Shown: positions 1,979-55,028 of the stretch, in pieces
How the letters are laid out: each line of letters starts with the position of its first letter
How positions within the stretch are numbered: position 1 is the first letter of the stretch
Source: Deroplatys truncata
Lineage: Eukaryota > Arthropoda > Insecta > Mantodea > Mantidae
NCBI GenBank assembly: GCA_030765065.1
Contig: CM060986.1
Coordinates: forward strand, 77,927,573-77,991,572
Direction of reading: 5' to 3'
DNA length: 64,000 bases
Made by a program: the position numbers and the translations under genes
The notes under the pieces: model-generated
The model's input: only the letters and a program-made list of their open reading frames with translations
Told to the model about the DNA's origin: nothing
Databases searched by the model: none

Positions 1979-2672
1979 TCTGATGTGATACATTCATATC
2001 TCTCTACCATATCTCGTTTATTACTGTGTATAAAAACTAGTCTTACCAAGGTTTATTTTTCCGTCTACTTTATTTTAACGCAAATAAACTTTTTAGAAAT
2101 AGACATATTTCGTTATAGATGCAATGGGAATAGCAATGGTCAAATTTTGAAGAACTGGACGCTATACTCCGGCCTTAAAATTGCATACTGTTTCCATGAC
2201 ATCGCGAGAAACAGCTAAATGCTCACAGGTCTTTAAAAGAAAGGTTAAGAATTGAACAATTCGAACCATTCATAACGGATATCTCGTAAATGGCTCATGC
2301 CAGAAAAATTCCTTCCGGATGAAGTGGACTTAAAAAGACTAATCCCAGGAAATTCAAGATATACATTTTGCCATCTAAATATCTTTAATACATTGTGTTT
2401 TAATCAAAATCGTTGAGCCATTTTTTTAAAAAATTAAGAATTTCAAAAAATGTTCCATGTAAAAGGTAGTTTGGGTGCTTGGATTTTCTTGGAATGTGTC
2501 GTATCTTTGGAAGATACTGAACCTAAATACCAAGTTTTGTGTTTATTCAACTTTTATTTTTGAGTTATGCTGTTCAGACACATGAACCTTTCTCTCTTTT
2601 TTGTATTCAGGAGACCTCAAAATATGTATTTCCAGTGAAATCTCTGTATCGAATTTTTGGGTGAAATGCAAT
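1979..2672 (-). mobile_element. Helentron-like non-autonomous element, subfamily B copy
   Basis: The minus-strand copy starts near 2672 and ends with TCTGATGTG read on the plus strand at 1979, the reverse complement of the family's CACATCAGA 3' end. It shares with other copies the blocks around 2455-2660 (AAGGTAGTTTGGG, the GATACTGAACCTAAATACCAAG block, and the CTCAAAATATGTATTTCC block). It is shorter than the full 0.8 kb, so part of the centre is missing, and its 5' terminal 12-mer is not recognisable. No coding capacity. Confidence 0.7.
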
Positions 2673-3115
2673 AAACACGTCTTCTAAAAAAGATAAAATA
2701 TAATACTGTATCTCTGCTATGCAATCACATTTTCAGCTTGTTCAAAGAGATGACTATTTACATGTCAACACCTTTGGGACCTTTCGTCACTGATCGACTC
2801 ACTTCTGTTAGAGTTTGTGGTGTTGTTACGGTATATATAGCGGTAATACGGTCTTTCATGTTGTCCAATTTTGAAATTTGCTGTTGCAGCATAATCTTCC
2901 AGCGTCCCCACAGAAAAAAAAACGTGACGTTATGAAATCACGAAGTTACTGAACACGACTACCTCGTCCTATTCACTGATTTGAAAATATTTTTTAGTAC
3001 ACATGCTACTAATACAAAGTATTCATCATGCTCTGATGACACATTATTTGACGCAGTTATTGGCCGAGCTTATTGCGTGAATGGCAGTGGCCTTCAGCGC
3101 CAACCGACTGGCTGT
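2673..3115. other. unassigned AT-rich stretch
   Basis: No gene or recognised repeat. It connects the Helentron-like copy to the heat-shock-type promoter downstream. Confidence 0.5.
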
Positions 3116-6149: not shown

Positions 6150-6251
6150 AGATATTTCTGCAAAGGTTTATTTGGATTAAAATGAAGTAGATAGAAAAAA
6201 TAAAGTTTAGTAAGAATAGTTAGTATATCCATGTGAATGTATCACATCAGA
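6150..6251 (+). mobile_element. Helentron-like element, 3' end fragment
   Basis: Matches only the last 100 bases of subfamily B, including the block ATTTCTGCAAAGG and the 3' hairpin ATGTG-AATGTAT-CACAT followed by CAGA. It is 5'-truncated. The hairpin loop differs from that of other copies while the stem is kept. Confidence 0.65.
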
Positions 6252-6752
6252 TATTTAATATTGTTTTCCAGTATTCTTCTAGATTATCAGTTAAATTATA
6301 AATGTATATCTCTTCTCTAATAGCTTAATTTATTATATGGTCATTTCTAGCGCATTCTTTTACCTTTCTTAAAAATTTATTTTCGCTGTTATATTGTCAT
6401 TTGTTTAATAATCCAGGATTCACTTGTATCAGCTATGAATAGTGCTGCTATTATCTTATAGAAGAACTTTATTTTCATTTCCTTACGAACTTCATTAATG
6501 TTCTGTTGATTGTAATACACGCTGCTTGGAATTTATTTCGAAAACTAAATAAATTCCAAGTTTTCCAACAATATCAGTGAAGGTAAGCGGGTTGGATGAT
6601 ATCTATTAGGGAAACATTCGGCAGCTACGCTAGTCAAGTTCCCTTTTGTTGACATTCTTCGCAATTTAATAAGACGTAAAGATTTAAAATGCCTAGTAAA
6701 TATTTAAAGAAATTAATTTCACGTTTAAAACAAATTACTGTGTACAGTACAT
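6252..6752. other. unassigned AT-rich stretch
   Basis: Nothing recognisable between the Helentron-like fragment and the hAT MITE. Confidence 0.5.
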
Positions 6753-6906
6753 CAGAGGTGACGAAAACGGGACTCACAAGTCATTTTGACTCGTAGGCGT
6801 AGTTCTCCCTCTCCCACTGTCCCTTTGTTTTTCACATGCTGCTGAGCGATATAGTGCGTGTTGCATATTTGGCAACTCACGGAAGAAAGGCATTTTTGCC
6901 ACTTTG
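6753..6906 (+). mobile_element. hAT-type MITE, diverged copy
   Basis: A 154-bp element starting CAGAGGTGACGAAAACG and ending with its approximate inverse (TTTTTGCCACTTTG). It shares internal blocks (CATTTTGACTCG, CACATGCTGCTGAGCGA, GTGTTGCATATTTGGC) with copies at 43781 and 50588. The CAGNGGTGGC-type terminus is the hAT signature. The flanking octamers (CAGTACAT, CAGTAGCC) match in their first five bases, which suggests an eroded 8-bp target duplication. No coding capacity. Confidence 0.75.
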
Positions 6907-7588: not shown

Positions 7589-8784
7589 AGACTTATGTTT
7601 ATTCTTACCGATGATATTTGGTCAGAGAAGCAGTCGGTTATTATTACACAGAACTAACTCAAATTTTGCATGTTATTTAAAACAGAAGGTTGACTCTCTT
7701 ATCCTGAAATTTCTTTAATTTACAGAAGATACTAGGATGTATGAGACGCTCCGTAACACGCAATTGTCGTTTTGTGTATATCAAAATTATTTAATGCACT
7801 ATCAGAGCTTATATCTTCCTAAGTCTATTCGCTCTACGCCATTTTTCACTCTCACTTCTTGACATCACCCACGTATTTACATCTAGCATGATGCGCAGCC
7901 CCGGTATGAAGTAATTTATCCTGTTGCATCACATTCCTTTCATGTTTATTAAACATTATCTCAACATTCACCATAGTTTCTAACTCCACTACGTGCAGAC
8001 TTCATGATCTAATAAATCGCTTTGCTTCTCACCTACTTTGTATCCACTAAGATAAGGTGTTCGCCCTCAGGATCGAATGTGTGTACATTTATGCAATTGG
8101 ATGCACTTCACTACCTCACATTAGCTAACATCTCTTGTCAGTTAAGCTCAATAATTGGGTGTGCTATGGATGACTGAAGTGTATTAGCTATCGTGATTGT
8201 CACAGGATAGATCTACTAATTCATACAACTATAATATTAGCTTACAATAAATGCTTAATCTTGGGCTTGATAGTGAATAGTTGTTAGTTTTGCTTATATT
8301 TATTTACATTTTAACAAAATATACACTAAGGTTAAGTAGAAAAACAAGCCTTGATGTTAAAATCCACATGAATTTCACTACTCTTCTAAAACTATTTTTA
8401 CCGAATATTCTTCTTCTACCCCCCTCTTGTTAATTGACATAAACTTTCATTACACATTTACACTTTTGTTGTGGGTATAAGAAGTATACACTAAACTAAA
8501 GCATTAGTTAAATATTTTTAAAGTCGGTTGTCATGTAATTGCTCTGAAATTTTCTTCTCTTTGCATAAACACAAAAAGGAATAGCGATATGCAGCTGAGA
8601 AAAGTATAAACTATTTAGAAAATTCAAACCACTAACAAGGAATGTCTCGGAAATACTTAACGCCACAAAAACTTGGTTTGATAAAAACAATGTGCTTAAC
8701 AAGACCTACATTTTTGTTGTAAGATTTTGGCTTTTCTTATATGGTAAGCCTATGTTCCTGTCTTACGATGTAACAATTATAAAA
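7589..8784. other. unassigned AT-rich stretch
   Basis: No recognisable genes or repeats. Confidence 0.5.
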
Positions 8785-9085
8785 AAATTCATAATGAGGA
8801 CTTCACGGGCTATTCTCTGAGGATGTGTATTTTATTTGTACAGAGGGTAGTTAGTAGTGGTAAGATTTTCAGCCAATCATCAGGTCACATCTTTGAAAGA
8901 TACTGAACTTAGAATATAAGTTTGATATTTATCGAGCTTTTGTTTTTCATTATGCTTTTGTAGACACACACATCTGTGTCTGTCTGCAAAAGTTTCTAAA
9001 TTTGCTCCTTTTGGATTCAGAGCCTCAAATCTTGTATTTTCGGTGAAATCTCGACATCAAATTTTTGTTTGTAAACAATATTTCC
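8785..9085 (-). mobile_element. Helentron-like element, 5' part only
   Basis: Corresponds to the 5' third of the family in reverse orientation: CTTCACGGGCTATTC, then the GATACTGAAC block, a short CACACACA run at about 8963, and the CTCAAATCTTGTATTTTCGG block. It is old and truncated at both ends. Confidence 0.6.
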
Positions 9086-10024
9086 TGTGTTTGCTGAAAA
9101 TACATAATAGAGAAAATAAATATAAGGATATAGAACAAAATTATACTGTTACAAGCAAGACGCGCGAACCAACATATTGAAGATTATTTATTTTTAGAAA
9201 AGCAAAGAAAGGTAGTAATGAATGCTATAATCAGGAAGCTGGCCGATTCTGCGGTGAGAGTGAATTTCTGCAAAATCTGCATTCTAGATAAAGCCATTAG
9301 AACAACGTATCTTCTTGTTACACCTAGGAACTTTACAAATTCAATGCCAGCAGATGAGTGGTAAAATGGTCGCTGTGGTCAAAGATCCTAATTCTGACTA
9401 GTTATTTAAACCAAGATTTCTCGGTTGTTCACTTTAGTCTGGTACAGTTTTAAATGCCTCGTTAATGAAGTAAAACATTATTTAATTAATATGAAAAAGG
9501 TAGTCGAAAGAAATCTTATAGGAGACTAAATTCTCAAAAAAATAAATGTTTAGTTTTCTGTACAGCCTTATAAATTAGAATTTCCTGTTTAATTTTCATA
9601 TATACTCGTATTAGCATTGTAGGCACAATAATATATTTTGTAAATATTTTAAAACTGCATTGCATCTGCCATTTTGTACTGTGAATTCTGCACCAGTTAC
9701 AGCAAAAATCTTAACTCCTATACACTTTGGAGTAGAAAGGTAAACCTTAAGGGAAGTTTTGCTCTACAAATGGTTTTCTGCTATTAGGTAAGTCAGTTTC
9801 CGTGTGCGCAAGTATTGCGGTTTCTTTATCTGCAAATATAATATGCTAGTTCGTCTTCTTCATTTTTGTTTTGAATAGCCTCTTCTATTTTCTGAAATAA
9901 GTGACCTGTTTCTCAGAAACTATTCAATATAGCTAAATTGAATTTTAAGATGACAGGAAAAAACTCCAAATGCTGTTGTAGATCTTCTTTGGTGTTAATA
10001 AATTGTTAGTCATTTTTAAAAAGT
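9086..10024. other. unassigned AT-rich stretch
   Basis: No gene or repeat recognised. Confidence 0.5.
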
Positions 10025-10682
10025 TCTGATGTGATCTACTCACATGACTTTCTCTATTCTATCGTTTATTGGTGGGTATAAAACTATTCTTACTAAAGCT
10101 TATTTTTATATCTACACGTTATTCAACTAAATCTTTGCAGAAATAGCCACATTACACATTTCGTTATAAATACAAAGAGAACAGCGATAGTTAAACGTTT
10201 ACGAACTGGACGCTATATGCTGGCCTTAAAAATGCCATAGTGTTTCCATGCAATCGCAAGAAACAAGTGATAAACTCATCGAGCCATTAGTAAGCGATAT
10301 CTTTGAAATGGCTGATGCTACAAGAGAAGTTATTTGAAATAATTGTATGTTTTAAAGAGATCTACATTTTTTCTGTAGTACGTACATTTTCGTCTATCGC
10401 TTAATGTTTACTAGTTATACAAGATTCTACAAAATTCCTTCCGAATAAAGAGAACTTCACAAGCTATTCCCAGAAAATTCAATTTTATGTCATGTAAATA
10501 TCCTCAATATACGGCATTTTAATAAAAATCATTAGAATAATTTTTTAGAAAATAAAAAAGCTAAAAAATGTTTCATGCAAAGGGTAGTTTGGGGTCGGAA
10601 ATTTTCTTGAAAATCTTTGGAAGGAACTGAAAAAATTCCAAGTTTGATATACATTCGACTTTTCGTTTTTGAGCTATGTTGT

Positions 10683-10717
<35 letters not shown>

Positions 10718-10882
10718 TAGAGAGAGACACACACACATACCCAAACACACAAGGACGTTTTACTAAAACGGGTTATTTTAGATTCACGGTGCCTCAAAAC
10801 ATGTATTTCCGGTGAAATCTCAATCAGATTTTTTGGTGGAATGCAGTACGTTCTCTACCTACCATGTACGTGGTACAAAATT
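10025..10882 (-). mobile_element. Helentron-like element, near full-length subfamily B copy
   Basis: Read on the minus strand, it runs from near 10882 (degraded start containing CCACGTACATGG) to the 3' end at 10025. The inverted 12-mer near the 3' end is AATAGAGAAAGT. It is followed by the hairpin ATGTG-AGTAGAT-CACAT and the terminal CAGA. The central TG/CA stretch has expanded into a pure CA microsatellite. It carries B-type 3' blocks (CATTACACATTTCGTTATA, GGACGCTATATGCTGGCC) shared with 1979, 42490 and 54103. Confidence 0.8.
10684..10714. repeat. (CA)n microsatellite inside Helentron-like copy
   Basis: About 15 uninterrupted CA units, followed by further CACACA and GAGA runs to 10750. It sits where other copies have a shorter, interrupted TG/CA tract, so it expanded from a seed carried by the element. 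Confidence 0.9.
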
Positions 10883-12691
10883 AATAATAGCTTATAAGAT
10901 CTTCTCAAAAGATGGTATAATTAAGAAAATAATTCTAACTTCCTTGATATACAAACTTATTAGACAAAAGTAAGTCATTGACTTAGGAGCCATGGATATA
11001 GTTCGTGTAAAACTTCCAGTTTAATATCTTGAATGGCTTTTGAGATAATGGGTGATGAATTTGTCAGATTAACATAACGGGATAGAGGTTTCTATATCCA
11101 CCTTGAAGAGCATGAAACGGCCACTCATATTGTTCACTCGTACTTTAAAAGAAATGAACTATTTCGGTACAAAGTAATAGCATACAAAAGCAAGTGGTTG
11201 GAATATTTGCGATGTAAAAGCAAATGAAGTTATGAAGCAACAGTCTCCACTCTGCACCTTACTCCAAGGTCTCGGAGGGTAAGGACAGATATAGCGCCAT
11301 GGCTAATCAAGACAAACGGTCTACACTGGGAGTTCCTCTATTTTCTTTTATTTAAAATTGCCTTTTCTTCCCTCCCTTTGGACCTATTTTGATATGACAT
11401 AAATTCTACTTGTTTTGGGTGAACTGGGACGGTGTGATGACGCGATTATTCATCCACTTTATGGTACTGCTTCTTTATTGCCGAAATAAAATTCAGATAT
11501 TTGACATAATTCTACTTGATGCGCGTATTATACAGTTCATATGGAATTTAAACAGTTGGCCTTGGAGAAATGTGTTTCACAGCGAAGTAACATTTCTTCC
11601 ACTGTCTTATTATCGTAATGCACGGCGGAAGAAGTTATGAGTGCAGTGTAATTTAATTCTGGAGTTTCCTCAAGCAGCCAAAACAGGTGAGCAAGTTGTA
11701 CTGTGGGAGGTTGAAGCGAAAGAATAATAACTGTTCGCAAACAAAAGACCTACTCCTTTGTGTTGCTACCAGGATGTCACGGAACCATATACAGGGTGCT
11801 TCAAGAATATAGTGTCACCTTAACTATGTTTAATTCGAATTTGGTTTGGTTAATTAACCATTGAATGGTTACTTGGCTAACTTGATGCATAAACTGCAAA
11901 GTCTTGTACTTCTTTACTCGAAACTTTGAATTATTGTTTACCCTCAGCTACGTTAAATTTATAAAACTTGATTAAATTATGGGCACAATTTTAATGCAAT
12001 ACTTAAAACAACGTTTTGAGTTATGGGTTGTTAAACAAAATTAAGTTTTGTTTCGGATATTTTCACAAGAAATAAGTAAGGTTAAACTTCTCACGTACTA
12101 AATTACTTCATTCCTCCAAAACAGACAAAAATTGGTTGTTTATAAGCAATGAATAGCATTTTAAAATAGCCTGAAAAACTTAAATCTAAACAATGATGTA
12201 CTTAATTGTGTTGGATTTCTAATAGAAATTCATCTTTTGAACACAGAGTCGCAGTTCTAATTTTGACCTAGCACTGCGAAAGATTGTTGCGGCCTGTACA
12301 TTTTTTAGAACATGTGAAGGTCTAACAGATAAGTTTGCAGCCTTCATCCTCAAGCTCTTGCATCTCGGATTAATTATCTAAAAGCCCTAGATACAGAATT
12401 TAGTGTATATAGCGCTGTACGACTTTTAAGGAAAAGCAGCGCCCAGGATATGTTCAAATACAGTCATACCGCGATGCTTATGTACACGCCATTCAGTGTG
12501 TTCCCATACAAATGACCTTAGTTGCGTAGCAACCTTTTTCTGCTAAAAACCACGAACAATCTGCAAGATAACAAATGTACCTCGGAAACGCTAATGCTGT
12601 AAAAATTTTTTTACAGAAAACGTATTGTAACGATTTCTGATTATTTCTATATTATGGTTTTGCTTCTATTATGGCTTATTCGAAAATAATG
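10883..12691. other. unassigned stretch
   Basis: Mixed composition. Patches around 11250-11330 and 11620-11720 are less AT-rich but show no protein or repeat I recognise. Confidence 0.45.
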
Positions 12692-12890
12692 AAGGTTTCA
12701 CGGGCTGTTTACGGACCGCTCAGGATATATATTTTATTTATCAATCGAATTTTAGGGTTTAATACTTCTTTTGTGTTATCCTGTTCAGAGATGGACACAT
12801 AGACGCACACACGAATGGTCTTCTAAAGATATTTTTTTTATGTTTACAGGTCCCTAAATACCTGTTTCAGGGTGAAATATAACACTTGCT
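12692..12890 (-). mobile_element. Helentron-like element, short diverged fragment
   Basis: Minus-strand fragment of the 5' third: TTTCACGGGCTGTTT, a CACACACGAA remnant of the CA tract, then AGGTCCCTAAATACCTGTTTC, which matches the family's CTCAAAACATGTATTTCC block with many changes. Confidence 0.5.
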
Positions 12891-13472: not shown

Positions 13473-13766
13473 CAATATCTCCAAAACTAAGCGTTGTAGA
13501 AAGAAATGTCTTTAATAAAAGTTGCTTGATATTATGGAGGAAAGTAAATCCATTAGTCGTGTTTTATCTGGAGGACTTATGATAGTCATTTTAGGATCAA
13601 CTTAGTTTGACCCTAATTGTATGTTCCGATTTAAAAACTTAAATAGACCCTAAAATGACTATTATAAACTCCTCCAAACAAAACAGACTAACGACATTTA
13701 CTTTCCCCATACCAAGCAACTTTTATTAAAGACATTTCTTTCTACAACGTTTAGTCTTGGATATTC
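13473..13766. repeat. long hairpin / foldback (arms about 130 bp)
   Basis: The left arm (13473 to about 13607) is the inverse complement of the right arm (about 13635-13766). Shared blocks include CGTTGTAGAAAGAAATGTCT, TTTAATAAAAGTTGCTTG, GGAAAGTAAAT, and ATAGTCATTTTAGG near the tip. The arms differ by scattered substitutions and small indels, and the loop is only about 26 bases. I see no target duplication. It could be a foldback MITE or a host hairpin locus able to give long double-stranded RNA. Confidence 0.8.
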
Positions 13767-13954: not shown

Positions 13955-14758
13955 AGTTTCTCTACTACGTAATAGTAAGTAGGGGAAGCATTTCATCCAC
14001 ACAAAAATGTGATACCGAGATTTCAGCGGAAGTACGTGTTTTGAGGCTCTCTCAATCCAAATAAAGCATTTTTCGAAACATGTCCGTGTGTGCTTCTATG
14101 AATACGATAACTCAAAAACGAAAAATGTTGGATAAGTACCAAACTTGGCATTTAGGTTCAATGTCTTCCAAAACTTCAAGAAAATCGCCCATCCCAAACT
14201 ACCCTTTACATGGAACATTTTTAGAACATTTTGCTTTTCTCACAAATGGTCCAACGATTCTGATTAAAGTATCGTAAATTTAGATATTTTTGCAGCAAAT
14301 AAAATGCATATCTTGAATTTTTTTAGAATGTTCCCAAAAGTCCTCTTCATTCTGAAGGACTTTTGCATAATTGTTAAATCGTAAGAGGTAGACAAAGTGT
14401 TACTACACTAAAAATGTAGATATCGTTAAAACAGACAATGTATCATATACATTTCGTTGTCGAGTGAACCATTTCCGACATATCCCTTGTTATTTGTTTG
14501 AATTTTCCAAAACTTACACTTTCCCTCAAATGGAAATTCGTTCTTCTTTTTTTATGTTCTGGACATGCAACTAGAATTCAATGTTTCACATAGCAACCAG
14601 CTCTTAGAAGATTTGACTATCCCTTAAAGCCTGCCATATTCCCCTTGCACCTACAAGAAAATTAGCAATAAGATTAACATGAAATAGATGGAGAATAAGT
14701 ATTTGTAAAAATAGTTTGAACAAGAGTAGAGAATGTAATGTGAGTGTAACACATCAGA
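13955..14758 (+). mobile_element. Helentron-like element, full-length subfamily A copy
   Basis: Begins AGTTTCTCTACTACGTA after TTTT and ends CACATCAGA before TTTG. An inverted copy of the start (AGTAGAGAATGT) lies about 30 bases from the 3' end, followed by the hairpin ATGTG-AGTGTAA-CACAT. The internal TG tract is short here (CCGTGTGTGC). 804 bp, no coding capacity. Insertion lies between T residues on both sides. Confidence 0.85.
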
Positions 14759-15809: not shown

Positions 15810-16655
15810 ACTTTCTCTACTACGTATGGTAAGTAGCGGAAGTATTGTATTCCACCCAAAAATTCGATACCGAGATTTCACCAAAAATACATGTTTTGAG
15901 ACCCCCTGAATCCAAAAAAAAAATTTCTGGAAACATGTCCGTGTGTGTGTCTGTGTGTGCATGTGTGTGTGACTGTGAACAGCATAACTCAGAAACGAAC
16001 AGTCGGATAAGCACCAAACTTGGTATTTAGGTTCAGTATCTTCCAGAGATGCGACACGAAGGTTTTCAAGAAAATCTCCCACCCCAGATCACCCTTTACA
16101 TGGAACATTTTTCGAAAATTTTAATTTCCTCACAAATGGCTTTAACGATCTTGATTAAAATATCATATGTTTAAGATATTTTCATGACAAATGAAATGCA
16201 TATCTCGAATTTTCTGGGAATGTCTCCAAAAGTATTCTTCATTGCGAACGACTTTTCCATAACTTTAAACCATAAGAGAGAGAGACAAAATTTTACTTCA
16301 CAAAAAATGTAGAGCGCGTTAAAATACACAATTTATGTCATATACATTTTTTTTGTTGAGTGAACCAAGGCTTGTTATTTCCTTAAATTTCTCAATACTT
16401 ATACTGTTTCTCAAATGGAAATTCGTTATTCATTTTTTTGTCCTGGTATAATGCAAAGAGAATGTAATACTCCACATAGCAACCAGCTCTTAAAATATTT
16501 GACTATCGCTTAAAGCCTACCAATTTCTCTTGCGTCTACAAGAAAATTAGCAATAAGATTAACATCTCGATTAACATGAAGCTTATGGAGAATAAGCGTT
16601 TCTAAAAATAGTTTGTACAAGAGTAGGGAAAGTCATGTGAGTATAACACTTCAGA
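15810..16655 (+). mobile_element. Helentron-like element, best full-length subfamily A copy
   Basis: 846 bp. It starts ACTTTCTCTACTACGTATGG after GTTT and ends CTTCAGA before TTTTG. The inverted 12-mer AGTAGGGAAAGT and hairpin ATGTG-AGTATAA-CACTT lie at the 3' end. The internal TG tract (about 15940-15972) is interrupted. It is nearly colinear with the copies at 13955 and 34309. Short open frames in it are shared across copies only because the DNA is shared; none looks like a conserved protein. Confidence 0.85.
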
Positions 16656-18692: not shown

Positions 18693-19361
18693 TTCGTCTT
18701 TCTCTACCCAGTAGATATATTCTTATGTTGTTTCTTCAAATTGTTCAAACCAAAGCTTATTTTTCTACCTAGTTCATGTTATTCGAAATAATCCTTTACA
18801 TAAATAGTTTCATTACATATTTGTTTTTAGGTTAAAGAGAGAGAAGGGAAATTGAATCCGTAATCAGGTATCTAAAAGGCGACTCGCTTTATGCCAGCCT
18901 AGAAATTCCACATTTCTCCATGACATCGATGAAAACAACTGAAAACCACAGTACTTAAGTGACAGCATATATAACGATTCAACCAGTAGTAACGGATATT
19001 TTGAAAAATGGCTGATGCTGAAAAATGTTTATTAGAAGTAAATTGTGTTTTGAAGAGATACACGTGTGAGCAGGTCTTTTAAACAAAATCGTTACGTCCA
19101 TTTTTGAGAAAACTAACGGTAGCTGGTGCCAGTTTCTTAAAAATCTTCGTGTTGCATCAATGGAGGATACATGAGTTTAAATGACAAGTTTGGTATTTCT
19201 CAGACCATTTGTGTTTTAAGATTTTCACACCCTCAGACCTTTTTCTAAACAAGTTTTTGTCTTTCGATTCAAGTTGCCTCAAAAATTTATTTCCGGTGAA
19301 TTTAATTCCGGCATCGAATTTTTCAACCACGTACCTATCCTACGTACGTGGCAGAGAAAGT
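18693..19361 (-). mobile_element. Helentron-like element, subfamily B copy
   Basis: The 5' end is well preserved on the minus strand at 19361: ACTTTCTCTGCCACGTACGTAGG after a T. Internal blocks (CCGGTGAATTTAATTCCGG, GGATACATGAGTTTAAATG) match diverged family sequence. The 3' end is cut within the inverted 12-mer (CTTTCTCTA near 18700), so the hairpin is missing. Confidence 0.7.
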
Positions 19362-19539
19362 AGTAATATCAAGTCGTTAACAACTGACGTATCAAGTTCC
19401 GGGCTCTGCCGGACGAAACATAACTTGAACGCTTAGTATAAGGGATGTAATGGTATATGTGTTTGTAGTGAATAGAGAAAGTCGTGTTAATGTTTCACAT
19501 TATGATTTGGTATTACACCACCATCGTTTTTTGTTTCAG

Positions 19540-30375: not shown

Positions 30376-33300
30376 TTCCACACATCGCTGATTAGATAGA
30401 GATTCAAAGTTTTTAAAAGTAGACTTAGGACTTGTCACAATTTGGCAATTTCTGGTCGTTTGTAATAAAATGGTAAGCATAGGAAATAGTTTATGCAAAT
30501 TATTGAGATATGAGCATCATTACCGCTCGAAAGTGCTTTGCAAGAACGAGGCGCAAGTCGAGTTCTGTAATTACATGAGAGCGGTAATTATGTTCTTCCC
30601 AATAGTTGCATAGAATATTTTATCCGCGACCATATAAGAATGGCTGCTTGCCTTATCTTTATACGATCATTAATTTTAATAACAGTATCATCATTCAATG
30701 ATCATTGTGATAAACTGTGATTCAAAAGGACTATTATAAGGATACTGATTTGTTTACGATTACAATAGAATGGTGCAGAATATCTGGAATCAAGAAAAAT
30801 CGGCTTATTCATTCTGAATGAGATTCCCTCAATAAAGTATCCCTTTAGATACTGAAGTGACAGCTTTGATAGATGTTGCATCACTTTTACTGTGCAAATC
30901 CAGGGTAAAGTATGAAGTAGCATATGAGCGCTACGCTTCATAGTTAAGATAGTGCGTAATATCACACGTGATAAACTTTTACTTGCATATTTTGAGCTTT
31001 TATCACAGTCTTACAAACCTTCATCTTGGCATGCAGATTATTATATGCGTGTAAGTATATTAACTCATTACCGCAATGAGTGTGGTAATAAATGAATTAC
31101 CATGATAATATGACGATGGACAAGTCCATTATTAAATGGTCGCGAATAAAGTAAACCGGTTTACTGCAGTTTACTGCGAATCTATTGTTCACATGCAACA
31201 AGCAATGGATTCAACAAACGGCCACCTCGTTTATCCATAAAACTTTAAATCTTTCTCTATCCAATGATATTAAAAAGTGTGGCTTTCACGTTTTCTGTAT
31301 ATAAAAACATGAAATAATCTCATAATAATCTCAAATAATAATAACCATATATTTTATTAATTTAATCCAAAAACAGAAGAAGCACATAAAGGTCACTCGA
31401 TGTAAAAGGAGTCGTGATTCAGTAAAACTGGAATATATCTGAAGTGACATTTGTAGAATTAATCCGCACAGTAATTTAACTTATTTAATTCTAATCATAC
31501 CCATTATTTATTCAAATTTCTTGTATGTGTGTTGCATTAATTAAGTTTATTTTGATTATCCATCAAATTAGTCGAAGGTTTTCGTTTAATGACTGCGGTC
31601 CGACAATAATAAATTTCCATTTGTAGCAATTGGGCTTTAGTAAGGCTTCAAACGTTCTCTCATGAAGAAAAGTATTAAACATTTACTATTTTCGAAGATA
31701 TTTAATCTTTTATCATTAATTATGGATCATATAAGTATTTATAACATTAAATTCAAAGTAGAGTTTCCCTTATCTTGAGTTACGTGAACATTACTGTTTG
31801 AAATGGTTTTCTAATATAAATGAGGAATTTTAATTATGCTTGCACTACGTTTGTGTTCTTTTTTCTTTCTTGTAAACTGAACAGCATTCAACAATGCTTA
31901 ATCGAGCAGAATATTAGATTTATCCAATGATAATATTTACTTATAGATTGTGAGTTAATGAAAGGTATTTGACATTCAGTCATTATATATGAAAATTATA
32001 AGTTTCCTAATTTGAGATCTATTCCGCCCTCTAGTCAAATATAAATACCACAGTCAAAATCGGATTGGATTTCTATTGTTTTATATGCAGTTATTATGCA
32101 ATTTTTAATGTAATTTATCATACAGTGACCCATAGATTTGATCCTTTTATTAACGTACTTAATTGTTAAAAAACACGGTTCATGATTTTATTTATAATAG
32201 CATTTTGAACAAAAATAAAATGTTATGCAAATATATAAGAAACCTTTCACGAAGAGCATTTTAAATTAGCAATACATATGAGTAGCTAAAGAAAATGTCT
32301 TAACATTCTGGAAATTATATACTGTACATAAGTCATTATGATTTTGAACTATAACTTCATATTTCACACTGTGATCAAACTTTTATGCAAGTCAAATAAA
32401 AAGTGTGAATTTAAATGTTTTTCACAGGTGCATTGCTTATGATATTTGGAGGTTAAAACAAACATACGGAAGAGGCAGACTTGAACTGAGGCATAGGAAT
32501 AGGGTTAAGTGAGCTAAGGTGTAGTTAGGTACTTTATATACGAGTTTATAAATATATATGGTTTCCACGTGAGACACACTAGGCTGTTAATGAATTCCAG
32601 AAAAATATTCTGTTTAGAGCAATCTTAGGCACGTAATCTGATATTGGGAAGCTAGGGCAACAAAAATAAAATTTAAATTTTATGAGCCGTCAAAATAATT
32701 TTAATGTAATATTCACAAATTCCTACTAAGGTTAATTAGTGTTTGAATGCGTATTGTAATGTTTGGCGTCCCATCAATACCGAAAATAATCCTGGCTGAT
32801 AACAAAATATAAATATTTTCATAATTTATTTCTAAAACAAGCTGCAACATTCAGGATGTACGAATAAGATGATGTCACAGCATTAGTGTGCTGAATTCAG
32901 TTCTCAGAAACCATAAATTCGATATCAAATTCCACAGAGAATAGAGTTTTGAAGTCTACTGAACAAAAATATCAGCATTTTTAAACCAAAAAGGTTAGAG
33001 TCATTGTAAACAGTTGAAATTAGGATCACATATTTATCAGACATATTTGGATGTAAAATAAACATTTTCTGAAGCTTCTCCATTTAGAAAAATCTGTTAC
33101 ATATCGTATTCTTCGTTATATTTAGTTTTTAAAAATTGGCTGCAAAAGTTCTGATTACAATACCGCAGGTTTGAAATATTTATATGTTGAATAAAATGTA
33201 CGTCTTGAATACCTGTGGATAGTCTCTGAAGCTCTCTTCCATCTCGGTGAATTTTATATACCTGAGAGACCAAACTTCAGTAAAGCTGTTCAGTAAACAG

Positions 33301-34308: not shown

Positions 34309-35124
34309 ACTTTCTCTACTACGTATAGTAAGTAGGGGAAGTATTGTATTCCACTCAAAAATTCGATACAGAGATTTCACCGGAAATATATGTTTTGATA
34401 CACCATGAATCCAACAAAAAGGATTTTTGGAAACATCCGTGTGTTTGTGTGTCTGTAAACAGCATAACTCGGAAACGAACAGTCGGATAAACACCAAATT
34501 TGGTATTTAGGTTCAGTATCTTCCAGAGATGCGACACGAATGTTTTCAAGAAAATCCCCCACCCCAGATTACCCTTTACATGGAACATTTTTCGAAAATT
34601 TTAATTTTCTCAAAAATAGCTCTAACGATTTTGATTAGAATATCATATGTTTAAGATATTTAATGACAAATAAAATTTATATCTCGAATTTTCTGGGAAT
34701 GTCTCCAAAAGTATTCTTCATTGTGAACGACTTTTGCATAACTGGTAAACCATAAGAGATAGACAAACACAAAAATGTAGATCGCGTTAAAATACCCAAA
34801 TTTATGTGATATAAATTTTTTTGTTGAGTGAACAATTTTCGAGATATTGCTTGTTATTCCCTTAAATTTTTCAATACTTTTCTCAAATGGGAATTCGATA
34901 TTCATTTTTATGCCCTAGACATACAAAGAGAATGAAATGCGCCACATAGCAACCAGTTCTTAAAAGATTTGACAGTCGCTTAAATACTACCATATTCCCC
35001 TTGCACCTACAAAAAATTAGCAATAAGATTAACATCTCGATTAACAAGAAGCATACGGAGAATAAGCGTTGTAAAAATAGTTTGTACAAGAGTAGAGAAA
35101 GTCATGTGAGTGTAACACATCAGA
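34309..35124 (+). mobile_element. Helentron-like element, full-length subfamily A copy
   Basis: 816 bp. It starts ACTTTCTCTACTACGTATAG after CTT and ends CACATCAGA before GTTTTT. The inverted 12-mer AGTAGAGAAAGT is perfect near the 3' end, followed by the hairpin ATGTG-AGTGTAA-CACAT. The TG tract is short (GTGTGTTTGTGTGTCTG). Nearly colinear with 15810-16655. Confidence 0.85.
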
Positions 35125-35362
35125 GTTTTTGTTTAGAAACGAGATCAGAAGAAGCACTGTCATCTACATTCGTGTCTCGTATTATGTCAACGCTTTCTAA
35201 GAGGCGTTGGTACGGTTCACAGCGTAGGATTCAGACGGTTATGAGAATATGTCAACAAATGACTATGCCTTTTATATCCATTCAGCACATAATTATATTA
35301 CATTTAGTTTATTTAGTATACTTTAGAGAGCTTTTACTAAAAGCTATTGTATACACCAGATA

Positions 35363-35418
35363 GCTTTAGCGGACTATCCGGTATACTCATCCAGAAGTAC
35401 TTAATTATCCGCTAAAGC
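35363..35418. repeat. short inverted repeat (11-bp stem)
   Basis: GCTTTAGCGGA at 35363-35373 is exactly inverted as TCCGCTAAAGC at 35408-35418. Further weak complementarity outside suggests the remains of a small foldback element. Confidence 0.35.
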
Positions 35419-35580: not shown

Positions 35581-35844
35581 AGTGGATCCAATTACTGCTT
35601 CATGTTTAACATAACTAAATCCCAATGTCTCTCATGTCAATGTCCCGATATGGCCATAGAAGTTAAAGGGAACTGTGTAAATTATACAATTGAAAACATA
35701 CTTTTCTGTGTATTCTGCCAAAATGAGCAGAGAATAAATGTCTTCTTCATTTACTTAATATTTACAATGAAGTTAATGTTTTGGGGAGATCAGGTTTTAG
35801 GATGTTCTATAGCGTAGATGTATTAGTTTTACTTTATGTACCAC

Positions 35845-36260
35845 CTGGTTATAATAGGTATAGGAAGTATTGCGTTTCACTAAAAATTAGCAATACTTCA
35901 CTATAAATATAAGTTTTAAGGACCGCTGAATAAAGGGAGGAAATAATAGAAAAAAAGGTCCGTATGAGAGCGAGAGAGAACAGCATAAACGAAAAGTGGG
36001 GAAAATTGCAAATTAACCTATCAGTCATTGTATAAGCATATCAGCCGAAGATTCATCCATCCCAAACTACCCTTTAGAAGCATAAATGTTAATTTCCATG
36101 TTCTTAAAAATATTCTTAACGATTTTAATTAAAGTGTAATATATCTGATATATTAATGTGACAAGTTAAATATGGGTATATCTTGTGAAGTCCTTTTCAT
36201 ATTGAGTGAATACTGTATAACTTGATATAAGTGTTAATTATAAGAGATAGACTATTTACA
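35845..36260 (+). mobile_element. Helentron-like element, old 5' half
   Basis: Begins near GTATAGGAAGTATTGCG and keeps diverged family blocks: TTTTAAGGACCGCTGAAT, CAGCATAAACGAAAAGTGG, CATCCCAAACTACCC and TAAGAGATAGAC. In place of the TG tract it has GAGAGCGAGAGAGA. The 3' half is missing. Confidence 0.6.
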
Positions 36261-36419: not shown

Positions 36420-36757
36420 CCCGGTTGTTAGGGCTTACACCTCCCAGGATTTACAAGAGGGTGCATGGGGTCAGACACCTATCGGGGAGCAAGACAGAGG
36501 GAACACCCAGGAGGGTGATCAGCCCGAAGCCTGGTATGAGAGTGAGGAAGATGATATGAAATGACGGTGAGATGAATGAAAGCAAAGGTAATGGTGGAGC
36601 AATTAGTGGAATGAATGGCGAGGGAAACCGGGAAACCCGGAGAAAACACGCCCAGACGTCGTTTTTTCCACCACAAATCCCACATGCGGTTCCTTGGGAT
36701 TGAACCCTAGCCGCCTTGGTGAGAGGCGAGCGGTCTAATCACTCTTCACGCATTGCC
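36420..36757 (-). mobile_element. tRNA-headed SINE (family A/B, copy 1)
   Basis: The minus-strand head near 36757 has an A-box remnant, then CCGCTCGCCTCTCACC and a B box GGTTCAATCCC. Body blocks GCATGTGGGATTTGTGGTGG, CGTCTGGGCG, TTTCTCCGGG, CGGGCTGATC and GTAAATCCTGGGAGGTGTAA are shared with the copy at 57479. About 338 bp, no coding capacity. Confidence 0.8.
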
Positions 36758-39574
36758 ACTTAAAAGAAATGTGTAAAAAAGTTAAATGTATTTCTTTTTC
36801 ACTCTAAAGCAATACTAGTTTAATTCAGTTAGTAAATTCTAAAGTGTTGCGGATATGCATTTCGAATTTTACAAAAAAAAATATGTGCGAACCAAATATT
36901 TCTTGCTCCAGAATTTTCAGTAAACAGCTATTTTTTCTGAACATATTTTCCGATAATGCGGTGTCAGTAAGTCATATCAGAATGTTTCTAGAAGTATTTA
37001 TGAGGAATATGTACACCATAGAATCTATTTGTTAGAAATAGCATCTATGACTTTCGCATGACCTCTATTTCATCTTCCACCTAGCTTTATGTCTTCTTAA
37101 CCATTCCTTCTGTTTCTTAAAGCTATCATAAGTTTTTTGAGTTAATTTTAAAATGGCGTGTCTGATTTCCAAATGTTGCGCTTTAACAAATGATATTAGA
37201 ATTAAACTTCCAAGGTACACTTACTCAAATTGTCTAGCTCAACATAACTAGAAAATGCGATCTCCCTAAAAATAGTTCATGCCCATACGGTCTCTATGCT
37301 ATAGAATTCCACTATCAGCATTTTTTCATACATACATACATACATACATACATTGAAGCCTAAATATATTCCAGAATTTCACTTGACTTAAACTATTGTA
37401 TATTTCACTCTCAAACACAAGTTCCGTTATCATTTTGTTAGAAATGGAATTGAAGTTACCACTAAAATGACTATGTGACTCTCCAAAGCCTCTGCTGAGA
37501 TATTCTAGAAAACTTCGCTTATTTTGTCACAATAAATTGCAAACTCTGAAGATATAGCCTCAAGTTCCGCATTTCGAGAACAGCGAGAGTAGAAGAAGAA
37601 TCTAATCGCGATAAAGAAGAAAATTTCCAGTTTGCTAGCAAAGTCACTTTCATCCCGGATGTGCGATAGCGTCCTGGTATCTCACGGAGGGAGAGAACGA
37701 AATTGCGTTTGTAATCTCCCAGTAAATAGGAGAGAGCGTGGTGAACCGCAAATAACAAGGAATGACCTCCCACGAGCTTCTCTTCGTTTTACAAAATCTT
37801 TCATCAAGTTTGTGAAGAGAAACAAATAAAGAATTAAATATTTATAGGAGAGTGAACCATCTATAAAACAGCAATTAAATGGTGGCCTTATAAATGCATG
37901 TAAAAGCCTTCAAAGTTCTATATTGTGGAATACGTAAAAGGAATAAATGCCATTCATTTAATAAAATGTTATATCAGGTCAGAAGAGAGGGAAAACGAAC
38001 GCGTTAAATTTTCTATCCTTATACTCTCCTTTCATATTACGAGTATCGGGACCACAAATATGCCTATGACTTTGTATCTTTGGCAATTAAGATACTGTAA
38101 ACCGCCCATTTCGACTTTTGGGCTCTAACGTCACAAAATGGTATAGCCATCTCTGTTAGATGACAGAGTGGGGAAGCTAGAAAGCGCACTTTCACACCTT
38201 GAGTACTAGTGCCCTTCCGTTATGTTATATGAATAGACGCTTAGAATGCAATAAATTTATAATATTAACTGTAACTTGTGGCTAAGTGCAAGTTGTAAGT
38301 TTCGGAATAACTTTGTTACATACGATCACCTTAAGATTGGAATTAGAACTTCGAAAATGTGAAAATAGTGGCATTAATTCTTATTACAGCATCTGCCATA
38401 GTTTAAAATAATTACTATAATAGGTGGACTATTATAGGTCATGAATCTAAAAACGAAAAATGTAACTGGACTGCTTGTACACTAACATGAAATGATGTTA
38501 GCTCTAATTTTACGAGTTACAGGAATGCATTCTCAGTATTAGGCCCGATATTAGTAAAGTGGAGAAACTTTTTTCTTCATCACCACCAGCTTCTTTGCTT
38601 CAGTCAACGGATTACGAGTTTCACATGTCGTATTTTTAATACCAGCTTCAATACTTAATTAGATACTGCATGGATCGTTCTTCTCTGTAGGTGTGCTAGA
38701 GGTGTGGAACTGTAGAAGACATTATAATTATTACAACACTTTAGAAACAGTTCAGTTTTAGAGGAATTAGGTATAATCAAGCTACTTTTGAAAAAGCCTT
38801 GTGTTACACTTCAAAATTTACAAAATAATACATAATTCACTTCGTTGTACTTCAAGCATTCCTTTCTGGAATAGAAATATAATACAAATCATTTTAAATT
38901 ATCTAGTCCCACATTAGGCAGTCTTTTAATGCCCCTTATTACGAGTAGTATCTGGGTAGGTTACTTTAAAATTTAAAGCTCCTTTTCTTGGATATAATTG
39001 TTTTAGAGTGTGCAACACAGAAAACGTTTCAGTTTCAACAAATAAGTTACAAACATAACGTTTGTTCATGTTCTTAAAATCGTAAGGATTATTATTAACT
39101 CTACTAAAAGAGTAACTCAGTTCATTTTCAAAATAGCTTTGAAAACGTAATTACCAAAAGAGTAGAAAAACAATTTAATAATTTATTAAACAGCGTTTAT
39201 ATTTTTCGATATCTTTCAATATTTTAAAACTTAGGATATTAAAAGTCTTTAGTAGTGATAGTAGTAGTGCAATAAAATCTGAATAAGTATATATAAAATT
39301 ATACGGGCTTAAACATTTGAAACAAGTGAATAACGGCAAAAGGAGATAGTTGCCAAATCTTGAGAGAAAGAAATGAAATGATACAGAGATTCCAACCTGT
39401 CTGCAAAAAAGCACTCTTCTGGCTATAATAGTTAATACTTATCCCCTCATTAAATACTTCTCTCTTAGGTTCATTCGCTGTTGTGAAGCACAATCGAGTG
39501 CACGGAAACCTGTAAATGTCTTTGGTTTCATATAGTGGTTTTCTTTATTTAATGGCAGAATTTCTTTCTAGTCG
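36758..39574. other. unassigned stretch
   Basis: AT-rich apart from a GC-richer patch at 37560-37800. That patch is open on both strands for 65-84 codons but shows no recognisable protein. Holds a CATA microsatellite. Confidence 0.45.
37327..37353. repeat. (CATA)n microsatellite
   Basis: Six to seven uninterrupted CATA units. Confidence 0.9.
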
Positions 39575-40030
39575 GTGTTCCACAGCTGCCTGGGTGAGCC
39601 AATCTCTTATTGGTTTGAATTCAAGTCCGACAAACATCCATTAGCCTACGAACAAAGGTCATACCTAGATGAGTAGTGAATGGGGAGGAGTACGAAACAT
39701 TTCACCTGAAAGGCTGAAAGACAGGCTTCTTAACAACGGTCCACACCAGGCTCTGGTTGAGTCCGTCTTGTATTGGTTTGATGTCACAGGTCTGGCAGGA
39801 CAGTTTCAGACTCAGGAGTGAAGGAAAAGGGATGAATAAGACAAACATTGAGTGGAGTGCAAGAACAAGATAAGGAGTGGGGACTAGGCGGAGTATGTAT
39901 AGTATAGTATTTCCTTACCAACATAAACTACTGCGCTATATATGGGCACAATTCCATCCCCCTGACTATACTTATCAGAGTAGCCCTGATAAGCTTGGCT
40001 GCCCTGTCATCCGAATACGTATGAAAAACC
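39575..40030 (+). repeat. family E repeat, copy 1 (dimer-like)
   Basis: Shared at length with the minus-strand copy at 46980-47405. Matching blocks in order are CTTATTGGTTTGAATTCAAG / CTTTATTGGTTTTTATATTC, CATTAGCCTACGAACAAAGG, CACCTGAAAGGCTG, TCCACACCAGGCTCTGG, GTCCGTCTTGTATTGG, TTTCAGACTCAGGAG and GGGCACAATTCCATCC. Within each copy a phrase of the type CNNTCTTGTATTGGTTTGATNTCA appears twice, about 170 bases apart. No tRNA-like boxes, RT or transposase were seen. Confidence 0.6.
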
Positions 40031-40370: not shown

Positions 40371-40799
40371 AAGTTAACGCTAATGCCGATATGGCCATTT
40401 CAGTTAATGACGAGTTATAAATGGAACACTAAAAGAGACAATACAAAGTAAAGCCTTATGCTACGTTTACACAACTTTATAGTCAAGGGGAATTCTGAAG
40501 TACCTATCCGAGCATATCTTATTGTTTCTCTAAAGCCTATTAACTAAAATATGAAGCTTCTCTCTAGACCGTTTGCACTAGGGTAAATGTTTACAGTTTA
40601 CACAAGCTGCCACCATGGTGCATTTAGAGAAAAAGGATCTTATTACTGCATTTATAGCCCAATCAGGACAAATGTATTGCAGCGGAGATTTCAGTTTTAC
40701 TAGACATAGTGCGAAATATGCAGTATTGACTCGTAATGAGCCCTAGTCATGTTTGGTTACAATGTCTCATGTGTTATGCCCTATTTAACTACCATTTTT
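40371..40799. other. unassigned stretch
   Basis: No gene or repeat recognised. Confidence 0.5.
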
Positions 40800-41463
40800 A
40801 CTATTTCTGCCACGTACATAGTAGGTAGAGAAGATACTGCATTCCATCCAAAAATTCGATATAGGGATTTTACCGGAAATACAGGTTTTAAGGCCCCTGA
40901 TTAAAAAACACAAATTTAGGAAAAGGTCCTGTGTGGCTGTAAACAGCATAACTTAAAAGTCGGATAAATACCAAACTTTAGATTCAATACTTTCCAAAGA
41001 TGCAACACAAAGAGGCAACACGAACTGGCCTTAAATAGAACATTTTTTTAATTTGTTTACGTTCTAAAAATTGCTGTAATGATTTAGATTAAAATACCAC
41101 ATATTGATGCTCCTTACATGACATAAAATGTATATCTTAAATGTTATGGGAATAATCTTTGTAGTCCTTTTGTGTCATCTTTTATAACTAGTTAACGTAA
41201 AGCGATGGACGAAAACGTACTACACAAAAACGTAGATCCCTTTCAAACACACAATTTATTTCAAATAACTTTTTATGGTATAACTCATTTCTGAGATATC
41301 CATTATTAATGAAAAAATTTGAATCCTTCATCACTTGGTCATTATTTTAAGTTCTTTCAACATTCAGTTGTTTCTCGCGATTGCATTGAAACAGTGTGGC
41401 ATTTTCAGGCCAGCGTATAGCGTTCGATTCTTTAACATTTGAGTATCGCTGTTTTCTTTGTAC
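40800..41463 (+). mobile_element. Helentron-like element, subfamily B, 3'-truncated
   Basis: Starts ACTATTTCTGCCACGTACAT after TTTTT. Blocks match the family (CCAAAAATTCGATA, ACCGGAAATACAGGTTTT, AACAGCATAACTTAAAAG, CCAAAGATGCAACAC). The later part carries the B-type GCATTTTCAGGCCAGCGTAT and GAGTATCGCTGTTTTCTTTG, after which similarity stops. The 3' hairpin is missing. Confidence 0.75.
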
Positions 41464-41589
41464 CAGGTGGCCCACACAAGCCGTCCTTAGTTGAAATTAG
41501 TTTATACCAAATAGCGCGGATGCCAAAAGCTTTGCCTGACAGAACTGCAAAGGGGACTCTACCCGACAGAGAGGAGATCGTTAAATAAA

Positions 41590-41800
41590 ATACCAATGCT
41601 TGGAAACGAACAGTTTAACTGCTATTACTGGTCCCAAAGCTCATTCTGTATAGAAATTGTCTGCTATATGAGGTGTTTGGGGTTCGATATCCGGCTGGGC
41701 TCCAGAAAGTTGTGTTTAAGCAAAAACATTTCATGGTATGCCCAGAGTCTGGTCTTTGAATGTGATGGTACCTATGTTTGTGTGTCTGTGTGTGGGGGGG
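41590..41800 (+). mobile_element. SINE family C, copy 2 (diverged)
   Basis: B box GGGTTCGATATCC, then CGGCTGGGCTCCAG and GCCCAGAGTCTGG, which parallel CGGCTAGCTGGAG and CCCCAGAGTCTGG in the copy at 40168. The A box is poorly preserved. It ends in a TGTGTTTGTGTGTCTGTGTG run followed by seven Gs. A plus-strand frame of about 80 codons across it is not credible as a gene. Confidence 0.5.
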
Positions 41801-42489
41801 AGTGTTATCGGTTATTTCATAAGCAATTTGCTCATTAATAAGAATTCAGGATTGCCGCTGGACGCAAACCTAAGCAAGCGTGTGAAGTCATTTAAATTCT
41901 ATGATAGTTAATCTATAATCAGTACAACTGTATGGCACCAACTGGTGCCGCAAGGTTAATAAGATTTTATTTATGTACTCTTTGCGTTAGAATTAAACTA
42001 TTTTCTATTATTGCATTGCTCATAAGAAGCATACACAAAAGCAGCCCGTTTTGGTAGATGAATTGATGTAAGGGCCTCTAAGGCCCACGTTCTACGCGGA
42101 ATTATTCATATTATTTCTGTACGTAAAAAAAATAGAAAACACGTGCGCATAAGACATGCCGCATCTGCAAATGTTCAGAACACACCCTTCGAGCCTCGGC
42201 TGCATTTTGGTGCATCTCCGCAGAGATTGTAACCATATCTGTGTGTTATTTATTGGTGAACGATACCTTTTTGTCTGAATGGCCTGGCTCGAACTGCCTT
42301 CAGGAGACCACGCGGCACTTATCAGTATAAAACCACCAAGGAAACACCTGCTGACAACCGCACTACCGCAATGGTCTTTCGCTTTGTGCATGCACTGCCC
42401 CTTTGAACATCAGTGATGCGGCAACTTCTTTTGCACCTATATATCTGGGAAACTTAAAAGTGCAAAGTAGGCTTGTTTTGCCCACCTGA
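41801..42489. other. unassigned stretch with a GC-richer block
   Basis: 42080-42420 is GC-richer, open for 99 codons on the minus strand (42391-42092). No motif is recognisable. It may be a fragment of an unknown repeat. Confidence 0.35.
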
Positions 42490-43440
42490 TATCTATAACA
42501 AAATGTATAATATAGATATTTCTACAATGGCTTATTTGGATTAAAATGTAGTAGATAGAAAAATAAGCTTTAGTAAGAATAGTTTGTATACCCACTAATA
42601 CAGATAGAGGATGGAGAATTTTTACCTATCACCTACCTGTACAAGAGAATAGAGGAAACCTAATCGATAACCAAATGTTTAACACCGAGTGAATTCTAGC
42701 TTCTAAATTTCATACTCTTTCCATGATATCGCAAGAAACAACCGAATGAGACAGCACTTTGAAAATGACAAAGTATGTGTGTTCTTTGTTTTAGTTTAAG
42801 TCCTTAAACTGGATGAAATGTTGTGCAAATGAGCTGGGAGTCCATATAGCTTGGAGTCAGCCTACGTTTTCATTTTGAGATAAAGGAAAATCCCGGAAAA
42901 GAACCTTATTGGGGTAACTCATCCTACACAAGATTCGAACTGGGAATCTGTTGAATGTGAAGTCAGACACGCAACTCCCACACCATGAAGGTGTGCTAGA
43001 AAATATTAAAAAGAATAAAAAAATAATAATGTATATCTTGAAAATGGCTGATGCCAAAATAAAAGTCATTTGAAATAAACTGTGTGTTTTAAAGAGGTCT
43101 CGTGTTTAGTACTGTACCTTCTGTCTATCTCTTTATGTTTAACAGTTATATAAAATTATCCAAAGTTACTTCCGAACTAACTTCACAAGTTATTCCCAGC
43201 AAACATAAATGAGTTTTATTTGTTTTCATAATGCTTAAATGTATATGGTATTGTATTCTAGTCTTTAGAGCTATTTTTGAGATAAAAAAATCTAAAAACG
43301 TTCCAAGTGAAGGGAGTTTACGTTTTTGAGTTTGATGTTCTCAGAAAGAGAAACGCACACGGGATCTTTTTCTAAAATTTGGTATTTACTCAGGGACCTC
43401 AAAGCATGTATCTTTTGATTAAAATATTATGCACTTCAAA
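42490..43440 (-). mobile_element. rearranged Helentron-like copy (B) with inverted end and nested SINE
   Basis: From about 42671 to 43440 the sequence matches subfamily B on the minus strand (CATACTCTTTCCATGATATC, TGGCTGATGCC, AACTTCACAAGTTATTCCCAG, GACCTCAAAGCATGTAT). The adjacent 42490-42660 matches the 3' terminal segment of the same subfamily but on the plus strand (ATAACAAAATGTATAAT, AGCTTTAGTAAGAATAG). One copy whose end segment was inverted explains both pieces. A SINE interrupts it at about 42785-43000. Confidence 0.6.
42785..43000 (-). mobile_element. tRNA-headed SINE nested in Helentron-like copy
   Basis: The minus-strand head near 43000 has GGTGTGGGAGTTGCGTGTCTG (A-box region) and a B box CAGTTCGAATCTT. 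The tail carries TTTTCCGGGATTTTCC. It splits the family B sequence between the block before GACAGCACTTTG and the block TATCTTGAAAATGGCTGATG, so it inserted later. Confidence 0.55.
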
Positions 43441-43780
43441 TACTTGTAATCTAATAAACTGTATAACTGCGAGATTATAGAATATATACAAAAAGTTACT
43501 ACAGGAAAAGTAGAGCTCATTAAAATGCAGAATTCGTGTCAAACAATTTTCTGAATTTTCCATGTTGCATGTTTACACATTCTCATCTGACGAATATGCC
43601 TGAAAGCTTGCGATACTGTTTTCTTCTTTCCACCCCAGGAACTCATTACTTCAGCTATTCATACAGCTACCTACTTGTTTCATGTAATTAAGTACGCATT
43701 GCTTTATTTGAAGTCATTCCTAGGCAAACGTATATAGTGAATAAGATGTATAGAACAGTCACCTTTGACCAATGCTACCA

Positions 43781-43919
43781 CAGGGAGGTTGCGAAGACGG
43801 GACTGCGATGCAGGCGTTGCTCCCTCTAAGGTTTGCTATTCTTGTTTTGCATATCCTGCTGGTGTAACACGTGTTGCATATTTGGTGACTCGCCGAGGAA
43901 GTCATTTTAGCCATCCCTG
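43781..43919 (+). mobile_element. hAT-type MITE, diverged copy
   Basis: 139 bp. It starts CAGGGAGGTTGCGAAGACGG and ends TTTTAGCCATCCCTG, roughly inverse to each other. It shares GTGTTGCATATTTGG and ACTCGCCGAGGAAGTC with the copy at 50588. Flanking octamers no longer match. Confidence 0.7.
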
Positions 43920-50587: not shown

Positions 50588-50743
50588 CAAGGGTGGCGAA
50601 AACGACTTCCTTCCGCGAGTCGCCAAATATGCAACACGCACTGCGTCGCTCAGCAGCACGTGAAAATCAAACGGACGGTTGCAGAGAGGGAACGTGCGCA
50701 TGCGAGTCAAAATGCCTCGCGAGTCACGTTTTCGCCACCTCTG
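50588..50743 (-). mobile_element. hAT-type MITE, well preserved, with perfect 8-bp TSD
   Basis: 156 bp. The plus-strand left end is CAAGGGTGGCGAAAACG, and the inverse of the right end is CAGAGGTGGCGAAAACG. The octamer ACATAGAG flanks both sides exactly (50580-50587 and 50744-50751). The CAGNGGTGGC terminus plus 8-bp duplication is diagnostic for the hAT superfamily. It is CpG-rich and shares its whole interior with the older copies at 6753 and 43781, so it is the youngest of the three. Short open frames in it are incidental. Confidence 0.9.
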
Positions 50744-50751
50744 ACATAGAG

Positions 50752-54933: not shown

Positions 54934-55021
<88 letters not shown>

Positions 55022-55028
55022 GCTACTC

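Follow-up and report, generated by a model that had tools for sequence, protein, structure and literature searches.

The window, that is the whole 64,000-bp stretch of DNA that was analysed, contains a family of short dispersed repeats with copies on both strands. A search with an nhmmer profile built from nine copies gave 23 family matches, 22 of which had E < 1e-4; in the controls, the best E was 0.075 for ten first-order Markov windows searched together (ten times the bases) and 0.51 for the reversed window. The 22 significant pieces amount to 8,895 of 64,000 bp (13.9% of the window) and, if collinear pieces on the same strand belong together as we infer, they correspond to about 15 insertions. 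The copies and fragments, which are named below by one of their coordinates, are the following.

13955 to 14758, plus strand: full-length copy, group I, 804 bp (profile match)
15810 to 16655, plus strand: full-length copy, group I, 846 bp (nhmmer model 1-842), flanked by GTTT on the 5' side and TTTTG on the 3' side
34309 to 35124, plus strand: full-length copy, group I, 816 bp, with the best-kept ends (subTIR 12/12; profile match)
10025 to 10880, minus strand: near-full copy (10880), group II, with a degraded 5' end and a 6-pair 3' hairpin
54104 to 54938, minus strand: near-full copy (54938), its 5' end running into a trinucleotide array at 54930-55072
1979 to 2686, minus strand: near-full copy (2686) with an internal deletion, in two profile pieces
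8353 to 9118, minus strand: old copy (9118) with an internal deletion and an eroded 3' hairpin, in two profile pieces
18694 to 19362, minus strand: old copy (19362) with an internal deletion, in two pieces; the tail 3' of the subTIR is unrecognisable
40800 to 42616, plus strand: copy split by about 1 kb of other sequence (40799-41464 and 42482-42616), presumably one insertion
42641 to 43411, minus strand: fragmentary copy in three pieces, presumably one insertion
35830 to 36254, plus strand: 5' half of an old copy (profile match)
6163 to 6251, plus strand: fragment of a 3' end whose hairpin has 6 pairs (profile match, folding)
32910 to 33273, plus strand: internal fragment (profile match)
43460 to 43556, plus strand: internal fragment (profile E 6.5e-6)
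12569 to 12878, minus strand: weak fragment in two pieces (E 1.4e-5 and 3.8e-5)

The initial annotation had counted about 13 copies, three of them full. Its listed positions all belong to members of the family, as judged by profile matches, and its three full copies were recovered on the plus strand; the repetition of the family is therefore as described, and the count becomes about 15 with the joining of pieces given above. What it had listed as parts at 1979, 10025, 18693 and 54103 are the 3' ends of minus-strand copies, and the part at 40800 is a 5' end, its copy lying on the plus strand.

The homology among the three full copies breaks off at the same two points, outside which the sequences are unrelated except for their T-rich flanks. 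The full copies begin A(C/G)TTTCTCTACTACGT and end CATCAGA or a close variant. These ends have the general form first annotated, with two departures: 13955 begins AGTTTC instead of ACTTTC, and 15810 ends CTTCAGA, leaving CATCAGA to the other two. Within the 15810 copy, the following parts were located (subTIR, subterminal inverted repeat; IR, inverted repeat beside it).

15810 to 15821, plus strand: 5' subTIR, ACTTTCTCTACT
15832 to 15843, minus strand: IR, an inverted copy of the 5' subTIR (10/12, reached by 16 of 5000 shuffles) that pairs with the subTIR when folded
15936 to 15977, plus strand: internal TG-rich tract
16622 to 16633, minus strand: 3' subTIR, an inverted copy (11/12)
16635 to 16651, plus strand: site of the terminal hairpin at the 3' end, which has decayed to 3 pairs (folding of the 15810 copy)

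An inverted copy of the first 12 bases had been reported about 30 bases from the 3' end, and we confirmed it in all three full copies: it matches at 12/12 positions in 34309, 11/12 in 15810 and 10/12 in 13955, scores that were reached by 1, 1 and 58 of 5000 shuffled 3' ends, respectively. This 3' subTIR occupies the bases 34 to 23 from the 3' end, and hence lies 22 bases inside it. Beyond the repeat, about 22 bases are conserved as a tail among the three full copies, and the 6163, 10880, 54938 and 2686 ends have this tail in a related form. The 3' arm matches at 10/12 in 19362 and is at chance in the worn copies 9118, 40800 and 10880 (reached by 426, 531 and 2000 of 2000 shuffles, respectively). 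By eye, about 15 extra bases of the TATACCCAC..AATAA type, absent in the three full copies, precede the 3' subTIR at 10025-10060, 54104-54160 and 1979-2040; the family may possess two kinds of 3' end.

The second inverted copy of the 12-mer, the IR, starts 10-11 bases past the 5' subTIR, so the 5' end can fold back. As in 15810, the IR of 34309 matches at 10/12 positions (25/5000 shuffles), whereas that of 13955 matches at 8/12 and is at chance (975/5000). It is also at chance in 19362, 10880, and 40800 (300, 770, and 966 of 2000 shuffles, respectively), and 74 of 2000 shuffles reach the score of 9118. Two 5' ends were folded. In 34309, subTIR and IR form 12 nested pairs and, beyond a bulge, a further two (7 of 200 shuffles fold as well); the 13 pairs formed in 15810 include mismatches (23 of 200 fold as well). 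Over eight copies, 84.6% of the 91 cells of this 5' stem are paired, compared to 46-58% when the stem is slid. Its innermost counted pair is C-G in four copies and U-A in the other four, and the neighbouring pair is C-G in seven and U-A in one, with none broken at either place. In controls of 500 shuffles, the covariation score was reached by 37 and the percentage paired by 60; 30 reached the number of cells with changes on both sides, 197 that of pairs so changed, and 476 that of pair types. These statistics rest on related copies and the controls are moderate, so that the covariation in the aligned sequences supports the 5' stem, short of proof.

At the other end, a hairpin comes after the 3' subTIR, and its palindrome ends 4 bases before the 3' end. 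Seven 3' ends were folded, giving six pairs in 6163 and 10880, six pairs broken by mismatch in 2686, five in 34309 and 13955, and three in 15810 and 54938. The number of shuffles folding as well, out of 200, was 2 for 6163, 5 for 10880, 30 for 13955, 68 for 2686, 69 for 54938, 91 for 34309, and 118 for 15810. When eight 3' ends are aligned, 84.4% of 45 cells are paired, compared to 4-55% when slid; no compensatory change was found over these eight ends, and all 500 shuffles pair equally well. The terminal hairpin of the initial annotation is thus present, if weakly: covariation is absent, and shuffles are clearly beaten in two of the seven folded ends (6163 and 10880). It appears to be conserved as sequence, the structure itself not being proven by these copies.

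About 130 bases into the element lies a TG-rich tract; of nine copies, 15810 and 10880 have a long version of it and the remaining seven a short or worn one. The TG/CA tract previously ascribed to the full copies was accordingly detected by regular expression in 2/9 copies (15810 and 10880), with shorter stretches in some others. No central tandem repeats were found in the full copies. Their coding content is also small: the longest stop-to-stop frames inside the three copies have 70, 93, and 84 codons, and the sole ATG/GTG/TTG frame of at least 100 aa that overlaps them, at 35001-35363, exits the 3' end of 34309; extended from stop to stop, it matches no Pfam family.

Insertion sites are rich in T. 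A T is found at position -1 in 7/7 scored 5' ends, and T accounts for 29 of the 42 bases before 5' ends and 40 of the 56 bases after 3' ends, neither value being attained in any of 10000 random draws. The counts are based on seven 5' and seven 3' ends and exclude the degraded 5' end of 10880, copies without the end concerned, and the 3' ends of 9118, 19362, and 42482, which show no CAGA-type end. The T-rich DNA that had been described after the 3' end is broadly there, 34309 having a G first and then a T run. The lack of a target duplication given in the initial annotation is seen at 34309, whose flanks share no base; 13955 and 15810 are flanked by TTT on both sides, where a short T duplication is possible. 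A search of the window with the joined 80-base flanks of nine copies turned up no empty site; their own places aside, it gave one 25-base match, from the 2686 query to 43014-43038, inside another copy. The 800-base flanks of 11 copies, searched separately in the window, revealed no uninterrupted site, and no flank matched that of a different copy among these 11. Such unrelated flanks indicate separate insertions.

We conclude that the copies are very probably decayed members of a HINE/DINE-1-like family of non-autonomous Helentrons, and that they fall into two or more groups differing in age. The initial annotation had read the family in the same way, and the order of the parts supports that reading, including the 5' IR that it did not name. 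Among the features used to recognise HINE/DINE-1 elements, we found subterminal inverted repeats in the 11-15 bp range (at 12/12, 11/12, and 10/12 in the full copies), an IR beside the 5' subTIR in 15810 and 34309, a palindrome near the 3' end, whose presence is weak, and a T-rich insertion site. Judged by its architecture, as far as this can be read from the sequence, the family qualifies as a HINE family. It adds one member to a well-described class known from flies, mites, and oysters, and is an ordinary example of it.

DINE-1 was once classed as a cut-and-paste MITE. That the present family consists of such MITEs, with TT or TTT duplicated at the target, appears quite improbable: TTT on either side of 13955 and 15810, the position of the 5' repeat at the very end, and the weakness of the 3' hairpin in several copies all speak for it, but the flanks of 34309 have no base in common, the 3' repeat is subterminal with the conserved tail of about 22 bases beyond it, so that the full copies do not have true terminal inverted repeats, and PMC2374699, in the available part, counts the 5' IR among the features of DINE-1. 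We give very little credence to a SINE or other retroposed element. The copies are indeed short, numerous, and devoid of a long ORF, but the three full ones have neither a poly-A nor a simple-repeat tail, there is no common flank longer than TTT, ARAGORN detected no tRNA in the window, and no Rfam family reached threshold. Spread through recombination or duplication instead of transposition, which two full copies about 1 kb apart in identical orientation might suggest, is just as hard to credit, since full-copy homology ends at the same two points, the flanks of different copies are unmatched, and copies lie on both strands.

The HINE/DINE-1 reading can be set against described families. According to the accessible portion of Yang and Barbash 2008 (PMC2374699), the common DINE-1 features include a partial inverted repeat next to the 5' subTIR, and DINE-1/INE-1 of Drosophila has a 13-bp repeat, a GTCY-rich tract, a central repeat region, and a hairpin stem of 7-11 pairs. 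In comparison to that description, the family studied here has a 12-bp repeat of another sequence, a TG-rich instead of a GTCY-rich tract, no central repeat region, and a hairpin stem of 5-6 pairs where it is kept; the likeness is one of architecture.

Thomas et al. 2014 (PMC4067079), in the sections available, call such elements HINEs and tie them to the endonuclease-encoding, rolling-circle Helentrons; for the HINEs of mite, Culex, and Drosophila treated there, autonomous Helentrons and empty sites are known. Those HINEs have subTIRs of 12-15 bp, a 3' palindrome, and T-rich targets in common with our family, in which, however, the 3' subTIR and the palindrome lie closer to the end. The distance from palindrome to end is 4 bases here and 8-35 bp in the mite HINEs of the same sections, a difference that counts against the likeness. 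In the part of PMC7492417 at hand, Cg_HINE of the Pacific oyster shows a subTIR of 11-12 bp, a complementary IR past a short gap, a microsatellite, a 3' subTIR, a palindrome, and T-rich sites, all of which recur here; its satellite-like tandem arrays mid-element were not seen in our family. A canonical Helitron, which as described in the available sections of PMC4067079 has 5' TC and 3' CTRR ends and inserts between A and T, was considered and rejected, as the ends of the full copies read A(C/G)TTTC (5') and TCAGA (3'), with T in the 5' flank and T or G in the 3' flank. Three 23-base element patterns had no exact match in viral (two patterns) or prokaryote (one pattern) DNA, which says little, and a literature search with two 12-base end sequences, covering titles and abstract openings, returned papers with titles on other topics.

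By analogy with published elements of this kind, an autonomous Helentron would have provided a RepHel-endonuclease protein acting on the ends of the element, rolling-circle copying would terminate at the 3' hairpin, and the new copy would be joined into a T-rich target. No autonomous Helentron partner was seen within the window. Pfam revealed no RepHel domain in 30 of its 91 stop-to-stop frames of at least 75 aa, including all 20 of at least 100 aa, although such a frame search could overlook a RepHel sequence that has decayed and accumulated many stops; among the 30 frames there was one below-cut-off match to DUF4389. A tblastn search of the window with Rep and helicase motif strings, run with no positive control, produced no match below E 1.5.

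Measured against a consensus to which they contributed, the nine copies show K2P distances of 0.15 to 0.35, and pairwise values range over 0.11-0.67. The closest pair is 15810 and 34309 (0.11), with 13955 at 0.22 from both. Outside this trio, 29 of the 33 pairs lie at 0.3-0.6 and the rest at 0.28, 0.29, 0.61, and 0.67. These distances suggest one group made of 13955, 15810, and 34309, a looser second group with 10880, 54938, 2686, and 40800, and 9118 and 19362 as the most worn copies. Because the copies are old, a living autonomous Helentron is not implied; the claim that the family implies an autonomous Helentron in the genome therefore holds for the past and not for the present. Having copies of different age within 64 kb reveals which parts of the ends persist.

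The three related arms also agree in part with one another. The inner base of the 5' arm agrees with that of the IR in 8/8 copies and, by eye, with that of the 3' arm in 5/6 copies that have both arms, 10880 being the one that disagrees. It is conceivable, though we consider it unlikely, that the 5' subTIR, the 5' IR, and the 3' subTIR are mutually held, an inner T going with A partners and a C with G partners. If true, the 5' hairpin and a 5'-to-3' panhandle would both be selected, and the transposase would read the same stem at both ends. Common descent of few, related copies could be the source of the agreement. A genome-wide set of copies could test for joint change of the three arms, which bears on Helentron end recognition.

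Several other features were observed in the window. The array at 54930-55072 consists of (CTA)n and (CTG)n trinucleotides and lies at roughly the place where the 54938 copy should have its 5' hairpin; it may have grown out of this hairpin, as its CTA/TAG unit resembles the CTACTA of the hairpin. Upstream of 13955, a long inverted repeat at 13477-13764, palindromic over about 288 bp at 79% and with 56-nt arms that are 93% complementary, is perhaps a foldback element. A broken Tc1-type transposase at 61366-62349 is spread over two frames and was recognised by the Pfam families HTH_Tnp_Tc3_2 (E 7e-16) and DDE_3 (E 4.8e-11); the first frame has three weaker, below-cut-off matches (HTH_SB, wHTH-PRTase_assc, and Sigma70_r4). 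Two frames at 48586-49092, in which Pfam found 0 families, resemble, in our reading, a worn mariner-type transposase.

Two repeats in opposite orientation, at 36435-36744 and 57495-57791, are 79.6% alike over 314 columns. The latter starts with what is presumably a tRNA-like head bearing motifs similar to the A and B boxes, and the pair is perhaps a tRNA-derived SINE. Together with the Tc1-type transposase, this tRNA-like repeat suggests that the DNA comes from an animal. At 56596-56835 there is a tandem array with a 66-bp unit (3.6 copies, 94% matches) that is open in two minus-strand frames. Further dispersed repeat pairs are found at 39525-39888 and 47068-47445 (69% alike), 6752-6902 and 50593-50744 (83%), and 43870-43924 and 50583-50638 (86%).
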